A stretch of 42,103 nt of DNA from Leptolyngbyaceae cyanobacterium RM1_406_9 (GTDB lineage: Bacteria; Cyanobacteriota; Cyanobacteriia; Elainellales; Elainellaceae). Made by a program: the position numbers and the translations under genes. Of this stretch, positions 56 through 41,712 are shown piece by piece. Where the stretch lies: assembly GCA_012033355.1 (NCBI GenBank), contig JAAUQZ010000011.1, positions 1 through 42,103 of the forward strand, read 5' to 3'. Every line of letters starts with the position of its first letter. The stretch's first letter is position 1. The notes below the pieces were generated by a model. It was given only the letters and a program-made list of their open reading frames with translations, did not search any database and was not told the DNA's origin.

Positions 56-769
56 CTACATCGGGAATTTGTCTCTCATGAATGTCAGCGTTTCTTCTAA
101 CGCCGCGACCGGGAGACGGGTCGCGGCCGAACCAGACGCGCCAGGGAATTCAGTGCAATAGCGGCAGGGGTCGTCTGTAGGCAGCAACTCAGCTTGTTGA
201 CGGAGGCGTTCAGTCATTTCGGGAGACAACCTTCCCAGCAACTGCCTTTCGCTTCCACTTCCAGCCAAGAAAACGAGCGTTAGACTTCCTAGCCGAATGC
301 GATCGCCGTCTTTAATCAAACTCCGCTGCACTTTCTCTCCGTTAACGTAGGAGCCATTGCTGCTATTCAAGTCGGTCAAGAAAAACCCGTGATTTTCGAT
401 GTATTGAATTGCTGCATGACAGCGAGACAGGCGCTTATCCGCAATTGGTACCGTCACCTGACGAGAATCGCGACCTATAATCCAGGTATTCTCAGGTTGA
501 GAGAGCATTTGCGTATTGCCATCTCGCAAATTAGTAATGAGGTAAACCTGATGGTTAAGTACCATCCCCTGAATGTAGGGAAACATCATTCCTGGCAGTG
601 AGCTACCCCCAGAGTTTTCCAGGTTAAGAATTTCATCTAACAGCTCTCGATGATGTTCATAGAGCTTCAAAAACAACTGATACAGTCCTAAACGCTGCTT
701 TAGTTCTGTGTTTTCTACCGTATCTAATAGTTCTGATGAGTACTTGGCTAGAAAATTTGCGTTGATCAT
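56..769 (-). CDS. FHA domain-containing protein
   Basis: ORF with FHA core: WIIGRDSRQVTVPIADKRLSRCHAAIQ...LTDLNSSNGSYVNGEKV...DGDRIRLGSLTLVF. Confidence 0.9.
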   Translation of the reverse strand: MINANFLAKYSSELLDTVENTELKQRLGLYQLFLKLYEHHRELLDEILNLENSGGSSLPGMMFPYIQGMVLNHQVYLITNLRDGNTQMLSQPENTWIIGRDSRQVTVPIADKRLSRCHAAIQYIENHGFFLTDLNSSNGSYVNGEKVQRSLIKDGDRIRLGSLTLVFLAGSGSERQLLGRLSPEMTERLRQQAELLPTDDPCRYCTEFPGASGSAATRLPVAALEETLTFMRDKFPM

Positions 770-11278: not shown

Positions 11279-12283
11279 TTACAGTTCTACAGGTGCACAA
11301 ACCGCCAAACCTTCCTCTAGCAATGCTTTTAGAACAGTTCGTGTTGCCAGAACAAGTCCCAGTCGAGCCTGAGCCAAATCTGAATCAGCGGTTTTTACCT
11401 CTGCAAAAATGCGGCAGGCGGCGTGGAAGTTGATAAAGTTTTGGCTAAGAGTTTCGCCTGCCTTCAGGATAGAGGGCTGAAAAGGTGCATCAGAAAGTGT
11501 ATCTACCGTAGCGACAAGTTGAGCAATCAGCCGCCGCTCGGCAGGGTGTTGAAACCGTAATAATTGGTTGAAGTCGAGCCAGGGAAAAGGTTTTGGCGTT
11601 AATACAGACCCTGCCCAAAGCTCACTGGGGGAGAAATGGGATAAGGTGGACGGATTCAATGGACTCGGTAGTTCTGCCTGTTGAGCTAGATAGATTTGAG
11701 AACAACATCGGGCATGAGTGTGCTGCAATTCAAATAACTTGGTAGAATTACGCAAAAGTTGGTTATCATTTTCATAAACAAAATTCTTGCTGGAGTGATC
11801 GTCTAGGCGAATGGATCGCTCGGTTAGAATTTGTAGCCAACTAGCTAGTCCCAAGTCACTTAGTTGTAGATGAATCCATCCTGGGGGAACAACCTTAACT
11901 GTAAAGTTGCGCCACAGCGCATCTGATAGAGGTTGGCGAGCTACAGCTTTGTCCCCGACGGTTTTTATCGATTCAGTTAAACGCGCACCGATTGCCTGAG
12001 CAACGATTGTCTGAGAAAGGTTTGCTGATAGTTCACCCGTTAGTCTTGAAAGTTTCAGGGCGATCGCAGACACGTACTCAATTTCAAAAGTGCCCCGGTT
12101 AATGATGGTGAGAGGAACAGTTTGAGGCTGTTCTACATCTTTAGATAGATAGCCTTCATTGGACAAATTCGATACCTTGTCTCTGCGCAAAGCTTCCTGC
12201 AACGAATAAATGGTTTCCTGCAATCGTCCGGTTATGATTGGCTTTAAGGCTATGGAAGCAATATCGATAGAGGGAAGTTTCAC
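11279..12283 (-). CDS. stand-alone DALR anticodon-binding-domain protein (ArgRS C-terminal-like)
   Basis: C-terminus FINFHAACRIFAEVKTADSDLAQARLGLVLATRTVLKALLEEGLAVCAPVEL resembles the ArgRS DALR domain; no catalytic HIGH/KMSKS core in the ORF. Confidence 0.75.
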   Translation of the reverse strand: MKLPSIDIASIALKPIITGRLQETIYSLQEALRRDKVSNLSNEGYLSKDVEQPQTVPLTIINRGTFEIEYVSAIALKLSRLTGELSANLSQTIVAQAIGARLTESIKTVGDKAVARQPLSDALWRNFTVKVVPPGWIHLQLSDLGLASWLQILTERSIRLDDHSSKNFVYENDNQLLRNSTKLFELQHTHARCCSQIYLAQQAELPSPLNPSTLSHFSPSELWAGSVLTPKPFPWLDFNQLLRFQHPAERRLIAQLVATVDTLSDAPFQPSILKAGETLSQNFINFHAACRIFAEVKTADSDLAQARLGLVLATRTVLKALLEEGLAVCAPVEL

Positions 12284-12593: not shown

Positions 12594-13304
12594 ATGTACT
12601 CAGTATCCTCACAATCCGATACAGCCCGTCCTTTCCTGACCTGGCAAAGAATTTTGGACTGGGCCCAAGAACATTACCGCTGTCGGACTTTTGCCAAAGA
12701 CGAGAAGATTCCGGCTCGACCTGGACTGCTTTATTTAGTTCAGCGAGGTGCTGTGCGATTAGTTGGCGAGGCTCAGGTGAGCGCCACTGCCAGCAATTCT
12801 TCTCGCCTGCCCCGAATTAATTCTGAAGAAGCCTTTTTGGGGTTTGTCGGTGCCGGGCAGCCCTTTGAAATTGTAGCTCAGTCTCCTTTTACGTTGCAGA
12901 GTTTAGCCCATGTTGACAATACTGCCGTGATCTGGATGTATTGGCACGATCTAGATAATTGGCCCCATTTCCGCCGTGAGGTGCTAGATGCTTTTCGCTA
13001 TCAGCATCAGCGTAAGCTTTTGTGGCTCAGCACGCTAGGCCAACGTCGCACAATCGATCGCCTGTTAGGGTTTTTAACGCTGCTGATCGAAGAGTTTGGT
13101 GAACCTTGCGAAGAGGGATATTGTTTGCCCTGGGCACTGACTCACGCCCAAATTGGTAGTGCGATTGGCTCGACGCGGGTTACGGTGACTCGTCTAATGG
13201 GTAAGCTCAGGCAGCGATCGCTGATTCGTACCTATGGCGACAATTTACTTTGTTTACCTGCTGAGTCTGTTATTCAGCGCGGCGAATCTGTTGCTCAGCG
13301 TTGA
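12594..13304 (+). CDS. Crp/Fnr family transcriptional regulator
   Basis: cNMP-like N-terminal half; C-terminal HTH ALTHAQIGSAIGSTRVTVTRLMGKLRQRSLI. Confidence 0.85.
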   Translation: MYSVSSQSDTARPFLTWQRILDWAQEHYRCRTFAKDEKIPARPGLLYLVQRGAVRLVGEAQVSATASNSSRLPRINSEEAFLGFVGAGQPFEIVAQSPFTLQSLAHVDNTAVIWMYWHDLDNWPHFRREVLDAFRYQHQRKLLWLSTLGQRRTIDRLLGFLTLLIEEFGEPCEEGYCLPWALTHAQIGSAIGSTRVTVTRLMGKLRQRSLIRTYGDNLLCLPAESVIQRGESVAQR

Positions 13305-13389: not shown

Positions 13390-14463
13390 CTAACGAATTC
13401 GGACAAACCCAGACGCTTCGATTAACGCCTGCCCCTGATCGGTAAGCAGTAGATTGGCATAGGCTTCTCCGGCTTGCTGATCAATCTGGCCATTTTGCTT
13501 AACCACAACAAATAGCCTGCGGGTGATTGGGTATTCGCCCGTTTGAAATGCATCTGAATTTAGCTGGGTGCGCTGGGACGAACCGCCACACTGAGAGCCA
13601 ATAATTAGCGGCTCGATATAGGGCGCTACAAACGAATCGCCAGAGCGGGCACTAATCGGAATGGGCTTAACGGTGCATTGACCTACGATTTCCGGTGCAG
13701 AAGCGTAGTAAATTCCACCTGGATCAGTTGAGACTTCCCGCAAAGCTTGGGTTGTAGTGTCAATGAAGCGGGTGCTGTTGCCAAAGTTTTGCCCTCCCAG
13801 GATGTTTGCGACGAAAAATTCAACGGTGCCGCCGTCTTCCACTCGACGGGAGTAGGGTGTGATGGGTAAGTTGGGACCACCGACCTGATTCCAGTTGGTG
13901 ATTTGCCCCGTGTAAATGTCTCTCAGTTGATCCAGGGTTATTCCAGAAAGGTTGAGGTTGGGGTTGATGGCGATCGCCATTCCCTCTAGCGCAACGGGAA
14001 TTTCTCTCAAAGTAAAGCCACGCTGCTCTGCCTCCTGATATTCCTGGGGGTTAAGCGCACGGGAGGACTGGGAAAAGGCAAGCTGATTGTCGAGCAGCAT
14101 CCGAATGCCGCTAGCAGAGCCGGGAGTATCTCCAGAGGGAGGGTTTGTGTAGCGCAGTTGATAGCCAGACCAAACGCTTTGAATCACGGGATCAACCTGT
14201 CCGCGAATGGGGGCCCAGGTGGTGCTGCCGCCATAGCTAAACAGCCCGGAGGGAACGTTGGGTACTCCTGCAAAATCGTCTGCAACGGGGGCAGGCGGAA
14301 CAGAGGATGAGCTAGAAGAACCGGGAGACGGGTCTGGACCTCGTCCCAGTAAGTTGCCCAATCCAGAACCCGATCGGGTGAACCACCAAACGCCGCCGCC
14401 AATCAGCGCGAGTGTGATCAGCAGAGAGATGAGCAGGGCCGGTGTTTCATTCTTCTGAGCCAT
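13390..14463 (-). CDS. membrane-anchored PstS-like substrate-binding protein
   Basis: N-terminal anchor MAQKNETPALLISLLITLALIGGGVWWF; FSYGGSTTWAPIR..., LDQLRDIYTGQITNWNQVGGPNLPITPYSR, PIT RRLFVVVK. Confidence 0.85.
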   Translation of the reverse strand: MAQKNETPALLISLLITLALIGGGVWWFTRSGSGLGNLLGRGPDPSPGSSSSSSVPPAPVADDFAGVPNVPSGLFSYGGSTTWAPIRGQVDPVIQSVWSGYQLRYTNPPSGDTPGSASGIRMLLDNQLAFSQSSRALNPQEYQEAEQRGFTLREIPVALEGMAIAINPNLNLSGITLDQLRDIYTGQITNWNQVGGPNLPITPYSRRVEDGGTVEFFVANILGGQNFGNSTRFIDTTTQALREVSTDPGGIYYASAPEIVGQCTVKPIPISARSGDSFVAPYIEPLIIGSQCGGSSQRTQLNSDAFQTGEYPITRRLFVVVKQNGQIDQQAGEAYANLLLTDQGQALIEASGFVRIR

Positions 14464-14547
14464 AGTTGCTGGGGTGCGATCGCATTCCCTTTTATAGTGC
14501 TACAGATTTAAGTCTTGATTAACCAAGTTAAGTTCTTTAAGCGATCG

Positions 14548-15981
14548 TCATGGCACGGGCACAAAATCGTAACCATAACCAGAGCGAGATCCCGGTTCGA
14601 TGATGACCAACTGCGCTGCCTGGTTGCGATCGCCCGATGGCAAAAACCGAATTGTACCCGTTGCTCCCTCAACTGCAAAGCCGCTGACGTTGAGCGTTTG
14701 CCGAATGCCTTCACGAGTTGGGTTGGTTTCCAGTCCCGCAATCAAAGCCTGGGTTGCGTCATAGGCCATTGCCGTCCGCCAGTTCACGTCACCTCCCCAA
14801 AAGGTTCGAGAAGACTGAACAAACTCTGCCTGTGGGTCAGAGAGAATGTGCCAGGGCACGGCAACCACCATGCCAACGGCGGCTTCTCCCCCAACCTGAA
14901 GCGTTTTGGGAGTGTAAGTGCCGTCTCCACCGAGCAGGGGCAACTGCCCACGATTGACTGCTACGGCCTGTAGCGCCTGATCCAGCATGGCGGCATTAGC
15001 AACCAAAACCAGAACTTCCGCGTCCTGTTCGGCGGCTTGTTGCAGCGTGTCGGCGGCGCTAAAAGCGGGATCAGCCAGGTCAAACTCTGCCAAAATTTGC
15101 CCACCATCGCCATAAAGTGCAGTTGTAAATTCGTTCTTCAGCGACTGGCTATAGGCGCTCTCCGAACTAAAGTAAATCGCAGCATTTTGAGCTTGCAGGG
15201 TGTTGACCATGTAGCGGGAAAGCGCCGCAGCGGTGAAGCGATCGCTTGGCACAGTGCGAAACACATAATCACCCACTTCTGAAAGCTGCGTTGCCGTGCT
15301 GGTGGGCGAAATCATCACCAGCCCAGTGCTTTGATAGATTTCTGCGCTCGCTAGCGTTGCCTCACTGCTAAAGTGCCCTACCACACCTAATACTTCTGAA
15401 TTGTCTGCCAGTGCTTCCGCCACTTGTTGAGAGACCTGCGGATCGTTGTCATCACTGGCGACCAGCACCTTTAGCGGTACACCGTTAATGCCACCTGCCT
15501 GGTTAACTTCAGTTTGAGCCTGAGCTACACCTCTGAGAATTTCCTGCGCCGGATTTATAAAGGTCGCTGCTGGGACTGAGACAGCAACCGTGTAAGCAGT
15601 TTGATTACCGATTTGAGCATTGTTGAGGTAAATTAGCGCTTCAGGATCGTTGCGATTAGCCTGAAGTGCTGCTTCCAGGTCGGAGACTGCTTGCTCAAAG
15701 TTGCCAGCGGCGATCGCCTCCACACCTGCTTGCTTTTGGGGCGATATCTCAGCCGCAAATAAAACTTTTTCTCCTGCACTCAAGCGTTCCTGAATCGGTG
15801 TAGCGCTGCCATTTCCTGAAGAAGCACTGGTTGAATTGCTATTGCCACTTGCTGTTGGGCTTCCAGGACTGAGCATTCCCGGACTCAGCCGATTAAAAAA
15901 CCACCAGGCTCCGCCACCGAGCAGCGCCAAAGTCAGCAGCAGCGACACGATGAGAACTGGAGTTTCGTTCTTTTGAGCCAT
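14548..15981 (-). CDS. membrane-anchored LivK-like (branched-chain amino-acid type) binding protein with a TPR-like segment
   Basis: Anchor MAQKNETPVLIVSLLLTLALLGGGAWWF; AIAAGNFEQAVSDLEAALQANRNDPEALIYLNNA; VLGVVGHFSSEATLASAEIYQSTGLVMISPTSTATQLSEVGDYVFRTVPSD. Confidence 0.88.
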   Translation of the reverse strand: MAQKNETPVLIVSLLLTLALLGGGAWWFFNRLSPGMLSPGSPTASGNSNSTSASSGNGSATPIQERLSAGEKVLFAAEISPQKQAGVEAIAAGNFEQAVSDLEAALQANRNDPEALIYLNNAQIGNQTAYTVAVSVPAATFINPAQEILRGVAQAQTEVNQAGGINGVPLKVLVASDDNDPQVSQQVAEALADNSEVLGVVGHFSSEATLASAEIYQSTGLVMISPTSTATQLSEVGDYVFRTVPSDRFTAAALSRYMVNTLQAQNAAIYFSSESAYSQSLKNEFTTALYGDGGQILAEFDLADPAFSAADTLQQAAEQDAEVLVLVANAAMLDQALQAVAVNRGQLPLLGGDGTYTPKTLQVGGEAAVGMVVAVPWHILSDPQAEFVQSSRTFWGGDVNWRTAMAYDATQALIAGLETNPTREGIRQTLNVSGFAVEGATGTIRFLPSGDRNQAAQLVIIEPGSRSGYGYDFVPVP

Positions 15982-15999
15982 AGCAAGTTCACGCCTCTT

Positions 16000-17484
16000 C
16001 TACATAACGCGGGACAGCAACGTGTAAATCAGGCGGAAGATGATGGTGACAGCGATCGCCAACAGCCCTGCCAGTCCCGCCACAATGACCAGACTGGAAA
16101 GCGGTATCCCAAACCGCAGCACCACAAAGGCAACGACCGCCAGCGTAACTCCAGCAACAATCGGCAAGTCCCATCCTTCAATCACTCGACGAGCCTGAAG
16201 GAAAACCAGAACGGCGATCGCCACCAGCGGCAACCCACCACTCAAGAGCCAAGATCCAGAAAAACTGTAAATGGCGATCGCCAACAGCCCCCCCTCAAAC
16301 CCAGTAAATCCAGCACTCCGAATTAGTTCCAGGGTCGAAAAGGGGCGTGTAGCGGGACGCATCCCTTGTGGAGCAGCAGGCTGCACAGGGACAGGTGCGG
16401 AAGCAGCAGGCATAGGGACAGGGCTGGGAACGGGGGGTGGAGGCGGGGTTTGGTTGGGGGCAGGCGCGGCAACCACTGGTCCTGAAAGGGGGGGCGATGG
16501 AGGTGGGGGCGGAGATGCTGGTTTGACCGTCAAGCTGGCGAGTGCTTCTAGCACTTCATCTGCCGACTGAAAGCGCTGGCTAGGAGTGGGCAACAACATT
16601 CGATTGAGGATAGCTTCCAGGCGATCGCTCACCTGCGTATAGGCTCGCCAAGCCCATGTATTGCTGTAGGAGTCATACAATTCATCAGGCAGCTTCCCTG
16701 TCAAAAGCACAATGCAAGTGACTCCCAGCGCATACAGATCGGTTGACGGAAAAACCTTGTCGCCCCTCATCTGTTCTGGCGGCGCATACAGAGGCGTGTG
16801 AATCCCCGTCGATCCTCTAGCGGCCTGACCTGCAACCGCCGAAGTAAGCTGCTTGACTGCACCAAAATCTAGCAAAAACAGCCGTCCGTCCCGGTGCCGC
16901 ATGATATTAGAAGGCTTGATATCCCGGTGAATGGAGTTGTTATTATGCACAAACCTCAGCACTTTGAGGATTTCAGCTAGCACCTCCAAAACTTCTGTCT
17001 CAGAGAACTGTTTCTTTTGCTCCAGTTCTCGCTCCATGTCCTGTCCGTCAATAAACTCCTGCACCAGGTAGAAGAAGCGATCGGGCTTATTGGGAGTGCG
17101 GCTGGGTACGTCCAACTCAAAAAAAGCCAGCAAGTCAGGAATCTGAGGATGCTTGTTGCCGAGTTCCTCTAATACCTCACCTTCTCGCTCAAACAGCTTT
17201 TGGGCCAGATCCAGCTGGGCCGGACTGAGATCACCCGCAGGCTGAAACTGTTTGACAACGCATTTTCGCATTGCAGGCGTGTAGCGATCGCGGGCCAAAT
17301 ATGCTGCCCCAAATCCACCCCTACCCAGCAGCTTTAACGGCACATAGCGCCCCACCAAAATTAACGGCATCCCGCAGGCAGTGCAATACTTCTGCTGCAC
17401 TGTTTTCAGCGTGGCGCTGTTATCCAGGTCAGCAAAATGGTTAACGGGTCGAGAGCAAGCCGGACGGGTGCAGTGAACTTCCAT
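16000..17484 (-). CDS. Ser/Thr protein kinase, zinc-ribbon N-terminus and C-terminal TM helices
   Basis: CTRPAC...CTACG; LLGRGGFGAAYLARDR, HRDIKPSNIM, LLDFGAVKQL, PEQMRG; Pro-rich linker and hydrophobic C-terminus. Confidence 0.93.
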   Translation of the reverse strand: MEVHCTRPACSRPVNHFADLDNSATLKTVQQKYCTACGMPLILVGRYVPLKLLGRGGFGAAYLARDRYTPAMRKCVVKQFQPAGDLSPAQLDLAQKLFEREGEVLEELGNKHPQIPDLLAFFELDVPSRTPNKPDRFFYLVQEFIDGQDMERELEQKKQFSETEVLEVLAEILKVLRFVHNNNSIHRDIKPSNIMRHRDGRLFLLDFGAVKQLTSAVAGQAARGSTGIHTPLYAPPEQMRGDKVFPSTDLYALGVTCIVLLTGKLPDELYDSYSNTWAWRAYTQVSDRLEAILNRMLLPTPSQRFQSADEVLEALASLTVKPASPPPPPSPPLSGPVVAAPAPNQTPPPPPVPSPVPMPAASAPVPVQPAAPQGMRPATRPFSTLELIRSAGFTGFEGGLLAIAIYSFSGSWLLSGGLPLVAIAVLVFLQARRVIEGWDLPIVAGVTLAVVAFVVLRFGIPLSSLVIVAGLAGLLAIAVTIIFRLIYTLLSRVM

Positions 17485-17496
17485 AAACCTCGTGAC

Positions 17497-18516
17497 CTAC
17501 TTTCCTCCAGGGTTGGAGGTGGTTGCCTCTAGTGAGAGCGGTTTGACAGGCTCGGCTGCATCTTTATCAATCCTATCGTCCACCGTGACCGGCTTATGAC
17601 TGGCAAACTGCGGCAGAATCTCTTCAAAGAAAGCCTCTGCCGCCTTAGAGCGATAGCGATTGGGATTGATAATCACTGAAAGCGTGCGATTGACCACCAC
17701 GTCTTCAATCCTGGCGCGGTGCAATACGCCCATCTGTAGCTCTTTCTCAATTGCCGAAATTGAGACAAACGCAGCACCTAACCCAGCCTGTACCGCATTT
17801 TTAATTGCTTCAATCGAATTTAGCTCCATTTCGATTTTGAGACGACGGGTTTCAATCCCGCAGCGCGTCAAAACCTGGTCAATCACTTTGCGAATCGTGG
17901 ACTGAGAATCGAGGGTAATGAACTGAAGTTTGTAGAGGTCTTCTTTCTGTACGGTGCTTAAGTGGGCAAGAGAATGCAGAACGGGTAAAATCAGCGCAAG
18001 CTCATCTTCTGCATACGGAATAATTTCTAGCGAGTCCTGTAGTTCTGGAGGCACTTCACCGCCAATGATGGCCAGGTCAATCTGCCCGTTTGCTACACTC
18101 CAGGCGGTACGGCGGGTGGAATGAACGTGAAGCTGCACCGCTACATCTGGGTAATTCTGCCGAAACAAGCCAATCATCCGGGGCAGCAGGTACGTTCCTG
18201 TGGTTTGGCTTGCCCCCACAATCAGAGTGCCACCCTGAAGATTTTGCAAATCTTCGATCGCCCGACAGGTTTCCTGACAGAGCGTCAAGATGCGATCGCC
18301 ATAGCTGAGCAACAGGTGCCCCGCTTCGGTCAACTGTGCCCGCCTGCCGCCCCGATCAAACAAAGGCACATCTAACTGTCGCTCCAGATTTTGCACCTGA
18401 AGGCTGACGGCAGGCTGAGAAACATAGAGACTATCAGCGGCACGCTTAAAGCTTCCCTCGGCAGCGATCGCCTTAAGAATCCGCAACTGATCCAAAGTAA
18501 AAGGAAGGTCAGACAT
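17497..18516 (-). CDS. rbcR: LysR-type regulator, RbcR family
   Basis: [66 protein letters not shown]; strong resemblance to cyanobacterial/plastid RbcR (Ycf30). Confidence 0.85.
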
Positions 18517-39640: not shown

Positions 39641-41712
39641 ATGAACGAAAGAGCATTGTCTGGCTCACGAAATGTGGCGATCGTTGGACCCTATCTCAGC
39701 GGCAAAACCACACTATTAGAGAGCTTGCTATCAGTAACCGGAGCAATTTCTCGCAAAGGCAGGGTGGTGGATGGCAACACCGTCGGAGATAGCACTGCTG
39801 AAGCCCGCGATCGCCAAATGACCGTAGAAATCAATGCCGCCAGTACTGAGTACGGCGGCATTCGTTTTACATTCCTCGATTGTCCAGGTTCGATTGAGTT
39901 TGCTCAAGAAACTTATAACGCCTTAATTGGCGTGGATGCGGCGGTTGTGGTGTGTGAACCCAATTGCGATCGTGTCCTCAACCTTTCCCCCTTATTTCAG
40001 TTTTTAGACGACTGGGAAATTCCTCACCTGATTTTCCTCAACAAGATGGATCGCGCCCACGCCAGCATCGCCGAAGTGCTTCAGGCATTGCAGGCGGTTT
40101 CCAGCCGTCCGTTGGTTCTGCACCAGTATCCAATTCGGCAGGGCGAAAAGATCACGGGCTTCATCGATTTGGTGAGCGAGCAGGCTTACCAGTATCATCC
40201 CGGTGCCCCAGCCGACCCTGTGCCGCTTCCCGATGCGCTCAAAGATCAGGAACAGGCAGCCCGCACTGAAATGTTGGAAACCCTGGCAGACTTTGACGAT
40301 CATCTATTAGAAGAATTACTAGAAGAAATTGACCCGCCTCAGGAAGAAATCTGGCAAGACCTGAAGATGGAACTGGGTGCAGACCTGATCGTGCCCGTGT
40401 TTATCGGCATGGCAGAGCAAGACTTTGGTGTGCGACCGCTACTCGATGCCCTGCTGCGAGAAGCCCCTGCCCCCGAAGCAACTACTGAGCAGCGCGGCAT
40501 CACGATAGAGGAAGTTAATCCACTGGCGCAAGTCCTCAAAACCTACTGCACTCCTCAGGGCGGCAAACTCTCTTTGGTTAGGGTGTGGCAGGGCACAATC
40601 AGCGACGGCGCAGTTCTCAATGGGGTGCGGGTCGGCGGCATCTACCAGCTAATGGGTCAGCAGCAGCAAAGCCTAACCGAAGCCGCAGCAGGGGCAATCG
40701 TGGCATTGGGTCGTTTGGAAGGGATTAAAACTGGGGATACGCTCAGTTTTGACTCTCAGCTAGTCAACGCTTTGCCTAAAGCAGAACGATCGATCCGGTC
40801 TATGCTCTGGCGCTCACCCCTGAAAAACGCAGCGACGAGGTGAAACTAAGTAGCGCAATCAACAAGCTGGTGGAGGAAGACCCTTCTCTTGTGTGGGAGC
40901 AGCACGGCGATACGCATGAGGTGATTCTCTGGGGACAGGGGGATATTCACCTGCTCGTAGCGCTCGATCGCTTGCGGCGTAAGTATGGCTTGCCGCTTTC
41001 AACCCATTTGCCCCAGGTACCTTACAAAGAAACGATTCGGCGAGCAGCAGCTTCGGTGCATGGTCGCTACAAGCATCAAACGGGCGGTCATGGACAGTTT
41101 GGCGATGTCTACCTGGAAATCAAGCCGTTGGGACGAGGGGAAGGATTTAACTTTAGTGAAACGATTGTCGGCGGAGTGGTGCCCAGACAGTACATTCCCG
41201 GTGTGGAAATGGGCGTGCGGGAATATTTGACGCACGGGCCGTTGGGCTTCCCCGTTGTAGATGTGGCGGTAACGCTAACCAATGGTTCCTATCATTCTGT
41301 AGACAGTTCTGAGCAGGCGTTTAAGCAAGCGGCTCGGATCGCCATGCAGGAAGGGCTGTGGCGCTGTGAACCCGCTTTGCTAGAACCTGTGGTGGCGATC
41401 GCCATCTCCGTTCCCACCAACTTCACCTCTAATGTGCTGCGCCTGATCAGCACCCGTCGTGGACAAATCCTCGGCTACGATGCGAAACCTAACTGGCGCA
41501 GTTGGGATGAAGTGTCTGCCTTCCTCCCCCAGGCTGAGATGCATGATCTGATTGTGGAATTGCGATCGCTCACCCAGGGCGTTGGCTCCTTTCGCTGGCA
41601 GTTTGACCACCTCCAGGAAGTACCCGACAAACTCATGGATCGGGTGCTAACCAAGAGCGGCAACAGCAACGGAAATGGCAACGGCAAAACAAACGGGAAT
41701 GGTAGCCATTAG
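39641..41712 (+). pseudogene. elongation factor G-like GTPase, split by a -1 nt frameshift near 40788
   Basis: GPYLSGKTTLLESLL, FLDCPGSIEF, FLNKMDRAH; after the shift PVYALALTPEKRSDEVKLSSAINKLVEEDPSL...YKHQTGGHGQFGDVYLEIKPL; track ORFs 39641..40843 and 40840..41712. Confidence 0.88.

Follow-up and report, generated by a model that had tools for sequence, protein, structure and literature searches.

A candidate nutrient receptor in separate pieces: a cyanobacterial membrane kinase encoded beside two binding proteins with a common anchor

We analyzed a stretch of 42,103 nucleotides (hereafter, the window) from Leptolyngbyaceae cyanobacterium RM1_406_9 and found a three-gene locus whose products probably form a multi-part nutrient receptor: a membrane Ser/Thr kinase and tethered binding proteins outside the membrane. 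Many cyanobacteria have a kinase of this kind with one to three tethered binders and no transporter, and elsewhere the same binding domains are joined to kinases in cis, which gives the locus the look of an outside nutrient sensor with separable parts. The original prediction held that the anchored binding proteins are sensors that inform the kinase and do not serve transport. This is supported by a conserved gene block, by the cis fusions and by the co-occurrence of anchor and kinase among genomes.

The three genes and their products

The three genes lie on the minus strand in the order kinase (16000..17484), LivK-like protein (14548..15981) and PstS-like protein (13390..14463). The tight same-strand packing described before is exact in its coordinates, with intergenic distances of 18 and 84 bp. 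Directly upstream, 12 bp from the kinase start, ends a LysR-family regulator (17497..18516, minus strand) that is conserved at this position; we take it to be RbcR, our test having covered LysR membership alone. A convergent Crp/Fnr-family regulator (12594..13304, plus strand) bounds the far end of the block in many genomes. As predicted, no ABC permease or ATPase families were found among the scanned ORFs of the window, which likewise showed no linked permease and ATPase genes of the kind that define a HAAT/LivK-type ABC transport system.

The kinase (494 aa; Pkinase 5.8e-36, Pfam) presents a four-Cys prefix, a catalytic domain (residues 48-312), a Pro-rich linker and a C-terminal four-TM domain (384-493). 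The Cys4 N-terminus noticed earlier is the catalogued '4Cys_prefix_kin' domain (NF045510; 41.9 bits against a cut-off of 24), and its C5, C10, C34 and C37 are invariant in the 28 kinases compared. The catalytic residues K78, HRD (186-188) and DFG (206-208) are intact and invariant in the same set. A fold search with the predicted model matched PknB; it returned kinase domains alone, with no match for the four-helix domain. The C-terminal TM helices that had been expected number four in the model (384-409, 412-431, 439-458 and 462-493), and four are also seen in the hydropathy of most homologues. According to the model, the outside loops of this domain are very short and the kinase would have no outside domain of its own. 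These four helices place it in the cbSTKI-TM class, which PMC2176072 defines by three to six TM helices C-terminal to the catalytic part. We also considered that it could be SpkC or SpkD, which have low-CO2 phenotypes (PMC11863333), and dropped this identity because the class listing in that excerpt of PMC2176072 puts SpkF, not SpkC or SpkD, in the TM class.

Both binding-protein domain calls held. The LivK-like protein (477 aa; Peripla_BP_6 2.9e-35, Pfam) is modeled with a TM anchor (residues 7-31), a flexible disordered linker (32-59), three TPR-like helices (81-124) and an amino-acid-type periplasmic binding domain (130-475). The model has a type I binding fold (pLDDT 90), and among solved structures it best matches Leu/branched-chain binding proteins, with TM-scores to the target up to 0.89. 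The pocket residues S206, T229, Y277 and D353 are conserved in 28/28, 28/28, 27/28 and 27/28 sequences, respectively. They align with S79, T102, Y150 and E226 of the E. coli proteins, which presumably hold the alpha-carboxylate and alpha-amino groups; at the fourth position, Asp replaces the E. coli Glu. Judging from these residues, the ligand is most likely an amino acid or a similar zwitterion.

The PstS-like protein (357 aa) carries the same anchor motif, followed by a Ser/Pro-rich linker and a PBP_like_2 domain (94-342; 1.3e-25, Pfam) in which C263 and C292 are nearly invariant. It scores below the PstS cut-offs (126.5 vs. 206.6 bits for TIGR02136; 35.1 vs. 205 bits for TIGR00975). The phosphate-contacting Asp, equivalent to E. 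coli PstS D56, which we take to accept a phosphate hydrogen bond, is Ala here. It is kept in only two of the 24 homologues and is present in the two canonical PstS proteins of the host genome. Phosphate bound in the classical mode is probably not the ligand, and another small, possibly anionic molecule may be. The host genome has a further PstS-like paralogue (C201, L165), which adjoins M50-peptidase pieces and glycosyltransferases, with no kinase.

A point absent from the original prediction is the near identity of the two anchors. Residues 1-28 of the LivK-like protein (MAQKNETPVLIVSLLLTLALLGGGAWWF; 15898..15981, minus strand) and of the PstS-like protein (MAQKNETPALLISLLITLALIGGGVWWF; 14380..14463, minus strand) agree at 22/28 positions, so that unrelated LivK and PstS folds share one anchor, MxQKNETxxLxxSLLxTxxLxGGGxWWF. 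The first 60 residues of both proteins contain no Cys and therefore no lipobox, in agreement with the claimed N-terminal TM anchor. The anchor segment is conserved (0.55) almost like the folded domain (0.58; linker, 0.16), which suggests that it stays uncleaved. With an anchor HMM at E<1e-4, 65/71 matches were LivK-, PstS- or small PstS-like proteins. The same anchor type or a close variant is also seen on a few further secreted proteins, by eye a glycosidase-like protein (L297) and another binding protein (L304), which led us to reject an exclusive tie between the anchor and the kinase system. This anchor type may therefore be a general cyanobacterial membrane tether.

Recurrence across cyanobacteria

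We sampled 146 genomes (42 with the kinase and 104 without) and scored 41 kinase loci. In 19/41 loci, the kinase gene is followed by one to three same-strand genes for anchored LivK and/or PstS-type proteins, mostly with 5-60 bp between it and the first of them. The check on neighborhood conservation was thus passed: the arrangement recurs across cyanobacteria more than by chance. The recurrent order is RbcR, kinase, zero to three binding proteins and a convergent Crp, and it is found in the sample and also in named genomes, among them those of Nostoc, Anabaena, Moorena, Arthrospira and Leptolyngbya. The rbcR gene that had been placed directly upstream of the kinase keeps this linkage in 24 of the 41 loci, six of them without binding proteins; that it gives the system a carbon-status meaning is a guess. 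No permease was noticed in the recurring block, with related loci scored for kinase, binding-protein, RbcR and Crp seeds only.

Counting against a receptor, an adjacent anchored binding protein is absent at 22/41 kinase loci, and binding proteins are often unlinked from the kinase in the 146 genomes. At the genome level, the anchor was present in 36/42 kinase genomes vs. 3/104 kinase-less ones (Fisher 2e-24; 2e-8 within class), an association that owes something to common ancestry. The three kinase-less genomes with the anchor contain truncated or deleted kinase remnants beside the binding genes. Three others (G027, G056 and G085) have the kinase and no recognizable anchored protein, which also counts against a receptor.

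Sensing, transport or a parallel role

Ordinary transport would make the two proteins binders that are tethered instead of lipidated and serve distant ABC permeases, with the neighboring kinase at most regulating uptake. The host genome, an 83% complete draft, has several BPD_transp_2 permease loci vs. three Peripla_BP_6 proteins, which may leave some permeases without a binder nearby, and the LivK pocket is intact. We nevertheless regard this explanation as rather unlikely: the kinase recurs in the block, where no permease was noticed, anchored proteins are essentially missing where the kinase is missing, and the phosphate Asp is lost from the PstS-like protein. Moreover, cis fusions link the LivK domain to kinases and to CHAT, caspase and STAND/AAA domains; they include at least nine Pkinase-TM-LivK proteins (L125, L126 and L128 are among the cis kinase-binding-domain forms), and the PstS domain occurs as CHAT-TM-PstS. 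These fusions to signaling and effector domains and the phylogenetic co-occurrence of anchor and kinase are two independent lines that favor sensing over transport. The TM segments of the cis fusions do not carry the QKNET anchor motif, which weighs against the receptor reading. In its favor, four genomes pair a separate single-TM kinase with a PstS-like protein of different anchor.

The genes could also form a co-regulated nutrient-stress operon, with kinase and binders working in parallel without contact and the anchor as a generic membrane tether. PBP_like_2 proteins carry close anchor variants (GPPPIVF...GGGYWWF and others) whether or not the genome has the kinase, which fits such an operon, as do binders unlinked from the kinase. 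The anchor and the kinase TM domain also lack specific co-variation, since the tree correlation between the kinase TM domain and the LivK anchor was gone after RbcR control (partial rho 0.09; low power). However, among genomes the presence of the QKNET anchor follows that of the kinase, the same domains are found joined in cis, and the kinase lacks an outside domain of its own; we judge a parallel operon improbable. It is far less probable still that the binders sense via another partner, such as RbcR- or Crp-linked regulation or another kinase, while this kinase is kept for other reasons. Cells do have many other kinases, and RbcR and the kinase stand without binding proteins in six loci, but in two sets of genomes the binding genes come directly 3' of this very kinase, and even a decayed kinase leaves its remnant beside them.

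In the receptor that we favor, the plasma membrane would hold the kinase via its C-terminal four-helix domain, with almost no outside part. The outside sensing domain would be supplied by the binders, each on a single N-terminal helix of the QKNET...GGGxWWF type. Ligand would close the binding domain and the signal would pass through the anchor to the four-helix domain of the kinase, perhaps relayed also by the juxtamembrane TPR-like helices. The kinase would then alter the phosphorylation of cytoplasmic targets. Binder sets differing from genome to genome would be plugged into it. More tentatively, and with slightly more doubt than belief, we propose a modular in-trans receptor, where a four-TM kinase hub docks changeable binders of unrelated folds via a common transmembrane plug. 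If so, cyanobacteria would change the nutrients that one kinase senses by gain, loss or duplication of binder genes.

To our knowledge, the activating signals of bacterial Ser/Thr kinases are mostly unknown, above all in cyanobacteria. The locus offers a specific and testable sensor-kinase pairing in culturable genera (Nostoc, Anabaena and Arthrospira), an amino-acid-like predicted ligand for one sensor, and a suggested plug-and-socket design of several outside sensors for one kinase.

Comparison with known systems

Binding proteins feed a membrane kinase, not a transporter, in LuxP-LuxQ and TorT-TorS. There, the kinases are of the histidine type and themselves have large periplasmic sensor domains, and the binding proteins are soluble.

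Fusions of Ser/Thr kinase and ANF domains are known in cyanobacteria (cbSTKII, e.g. alr0344 and CwatDRAFT_0902; Zhang 2007, PMC2176072, in the excerpted text), and a metacaspase-ANF fusion is known as well (PMC2853523). Their outside part is ANF/Peripla_BP_6, likely the same domain family as in our cis fusions. Unlike these single polypeptides, the window encodes kinase and binding domains in separate genes, with a PstS-type fold also used. Cis kinase-LivK fusions are thus already known, and our literature searches did not find the in-trans version described.

At the class level, the kinase resembles cbSTKI-TM kinases, in which three to six TM helices follow the catalytic domain and no sensor domain is recognized (e.g. 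SpkF, slr1225, of Synechocystis); the excerpted text of PMC2176072 proposes no sensing partner for this class, which differs in this from the window.

Finally, the GlnH-GlnX-PknG system of Corynebacterium and Mycobacterium likewise links a Ser/Thr kinase through a four-TM membrane relay to a periplasmic binding protein that takes no part in transport, and it responds to an outside amino acid (PMC9769921, PMC6069109). There, GlnX is a separate 4-TM relay with two periplasmic domains, GlnH a lipoprotein and PknG a separate kinase (PMC9769921, PMC6069109). In contrast, the four-TM part in the window is fused to the kinase and has short outside loops, and it is accompanied by one to three binders of unrelated folds with a common tether helix and no N-terminal Cys.

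Gene order at the kinase locus

At the locus level, the three ORFs lay exactly where the original prediction had placed them: a Ser/Thr kinase (17484 to 16000), a LivK-like binding protein (15981 to 14548) and a PstS-like binding protein (14463 to 13390), of the Pfam families Pkinase, Peripla_BP_6 and PBP_like_2. All follow a LysR gene on the same strand, with 12 bp from its stop to the kinase start and gaps of 18 and 84 bp before the two binding genes, and a convergent Crp-type regulator closes the far end. As claimed, no ABC permease or ATPase was nearby in Pfam scans of window ORFs of at least about 150 aa.

Elsewhere in the window, an FHA-domain protein (56-769, minus strand), of a class reading phosphothreonine, lies about 15 kb from the kinase. 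A DALR anticodon-binding domain is the sole recognised part of a stand-alone protein (11279-12283, minus strand). An EF-G-type protein (39641-41712, plus strand) is split into two overlapping frames (GTPase and domain 2, then domains III-IV-C), through either an assembly frameshift or a broken paralogue.

We inspected 41 kinase loci from a 146-genome set. The upstream neighbor, proposed as rbcR and assigned here to LysR, recurred directly upstream of the kinase in 24/41. In the suggested check of gene order, same-strand genes for one to three anchored binding proteins followed the kinase at 19/41, the first gap being mostly 5-60 bp. Since their sets varied (LIV, PST, LIV-PST, PST-PST, LIV-LIV, PST-LIV, PST-LIV-PST), the binding genes resemble a variable module inserted between the kinase and Crp genes. 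Six loci kept the LysR-kinase link without binding genes. In a second set of named genomes, including Nostoc, Anabaena, Moorena, Arthrospira and Leptolyngbya, binding genes followed the kinase in 37 of 37 loci, partly by construction because the set was retrieved by the LivK-like protein; Microcoleus relatives had the LivK-like gene alone.

The kinase and the shared anchor

The Cys4 kinase N-terminus noticed originally corresponds to the catalogued domain NF045510. In the structure model, the catalytic domain is followed by a disordered Pro-rich linker and then by four helices at the C-terminus (384-409, 412-431, 439-458 and 462-493), in line with the transmembrane (TM) helices proposed earlier. 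The outside loops between them are very short in the model, thus the kinase would have almost no outside domain. Its catalytic residues are invariant among homologues.

Despite unrelated folds, both binding proteins share the N-terminal anchor MxQKNETxxLxxSLLxTxxLxGGGxWWF. In the LivK-like model (pLDDT 90), residues 7-31 make a TM helix and residues 32-59 a disordered linker, after which come three TPR-like helices and then the type I binding domain. Among 28 relatives, mean pairwise identity was 0.55 for the anchor, 0.58 for the binding domain and 0.16 for the linker, and this anchor's conservation pattern appears unlike that of a cleaved signal peptide. The first 60 residues of both proteins lack Cys; therefore neither is a lipoprotein, and the normal lipobox is missing as described.

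Across 146 cyanobacterial-phylum genomes, the anchor profile (E<1e-4) had 71 matches: 34 LivK-like, 17 PstS-like, 14 in a smaller PBP_like_2 protein and six others, among them further small-type proteins, one glycosidase-like protein and, in genome G125, a decayed copy of 55 aa lying between the kinase and LivK genes. The anchor was present in 36/42 genomes with the kinase vs. 3/104 without it (Fisher 2e-24; within class 2e-8), statistics that are inflated by shared ancestry and depend on an arbitrary threshold of 1e-90 for kinase presence. The three exceptions carry kinase remnants adjoining intact binding-protein genes: one has lost the middle of the kinase but retains its Cys prefix and its TM domain (locus L152, 7000-8000, G064), one kept the TM domain (L161), and one is truncated (L163).

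Related tethers (GPPPIVF...GGGYWWF and variants) occur at loci L297, L298-L302, L304 and L305, where they are carried by small PBP_like_2 proteins as well as by another binding protein and a glycosidase-like one, and are perhaps a general cyanobacterial membrane tether.

Fused binding domains and their ligands

The LivK domain with its TPR-like helices also forms the C-terminal half of fusion proteins of ~750-1050 aa, where a kinase, CHAT, caspase-like peptidase or AAA/STAND ATPase precedes one TM helix. At least nine are kinase-LivK fusions in cis (e.g., L125, L126, L128, L131 and L133). One-TM fusions to caspase-like, CHAT or STAND/AAA domains were found at L129, L130, L134-L137, L139, L140, L141 (PstS domain with CHAT), L143 and L144, and we read their amino-acid- or PstS-type domains as outside sensors for what are probably cell-death or conflict effectors. 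A second, independent pair in four genomes (L162, L172, L173 and L174) sets a single-TM kinase beside a PstS-like protein whose anchor differs. Together, the cis fusions and this pair are strong reasons to read LivK and PstS domains as outside sensors. In the same genome as the window, L166 (contig C319, 800-4015) is an open reading frame that spans at least 1072 aa, has PBP_like_2 near its N-terminus and continues past the contig end.

By fold and sequence, the LivK domain is closest to Leu/branched-chain binding proteins. S206, T229, Y277 and D353 map to the residues that grip the carboxylate and ammonium groups of the amino acid in the E. coli proteins. They are conserved in 28, 28, 27 and 27 of 28 relatives, respectively; the Y277 and D353 equivalents are mostly lost in CHAT-, caspase- and AAA_35-fused versions. 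Our best guess for the LivK-like ligand is an amino acid or similar zwitterion. In canonical PstS, an Asp contacts phosphate. This Asp is absent from 22/24 PstS-like family members and the protein scores far under PstS cut-offs, so phosphate should not be assumed as its ligand.

Signaling, transport and known systems

In the mechanism that we propose, ligand would close the tethered binding domains, and the anchor would pass this closure on to the four-helix domain of the kinase. Against direct anchor-kinase contact, anchored proteins are missing from some genomes with the kinase, and other secreted proteins bear related tethers; anchor distances did not correlate with those of the kinase TM domain once the RbcR background was taken into account (partial rho 0.09, 42 loci, low power). 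Alternatively, the binding proteins could serve transport via distant permeases, which fits poorly with both the cis fusions and the anchor/kinase co-occurrence.

The cis forms were described earlier as 'ANF' architectures, for caspase plus LivK (PMC2853523) and for kinase plus LivK (PMC2176072). For the in-trans system, we found no description in the literature searched, which took in few subscription papers. Functionally, the locus as we read it resembles actinobacterial GlnH-GlnX-PknG, in which a kinase is controlled through a binding lipoprotein and a four-TM relay (PMC9769921, PMC6069109). However, in the cyanobacterial locus a single protein combines relay and kinase, and it seems to serve several tethered binding proteins.
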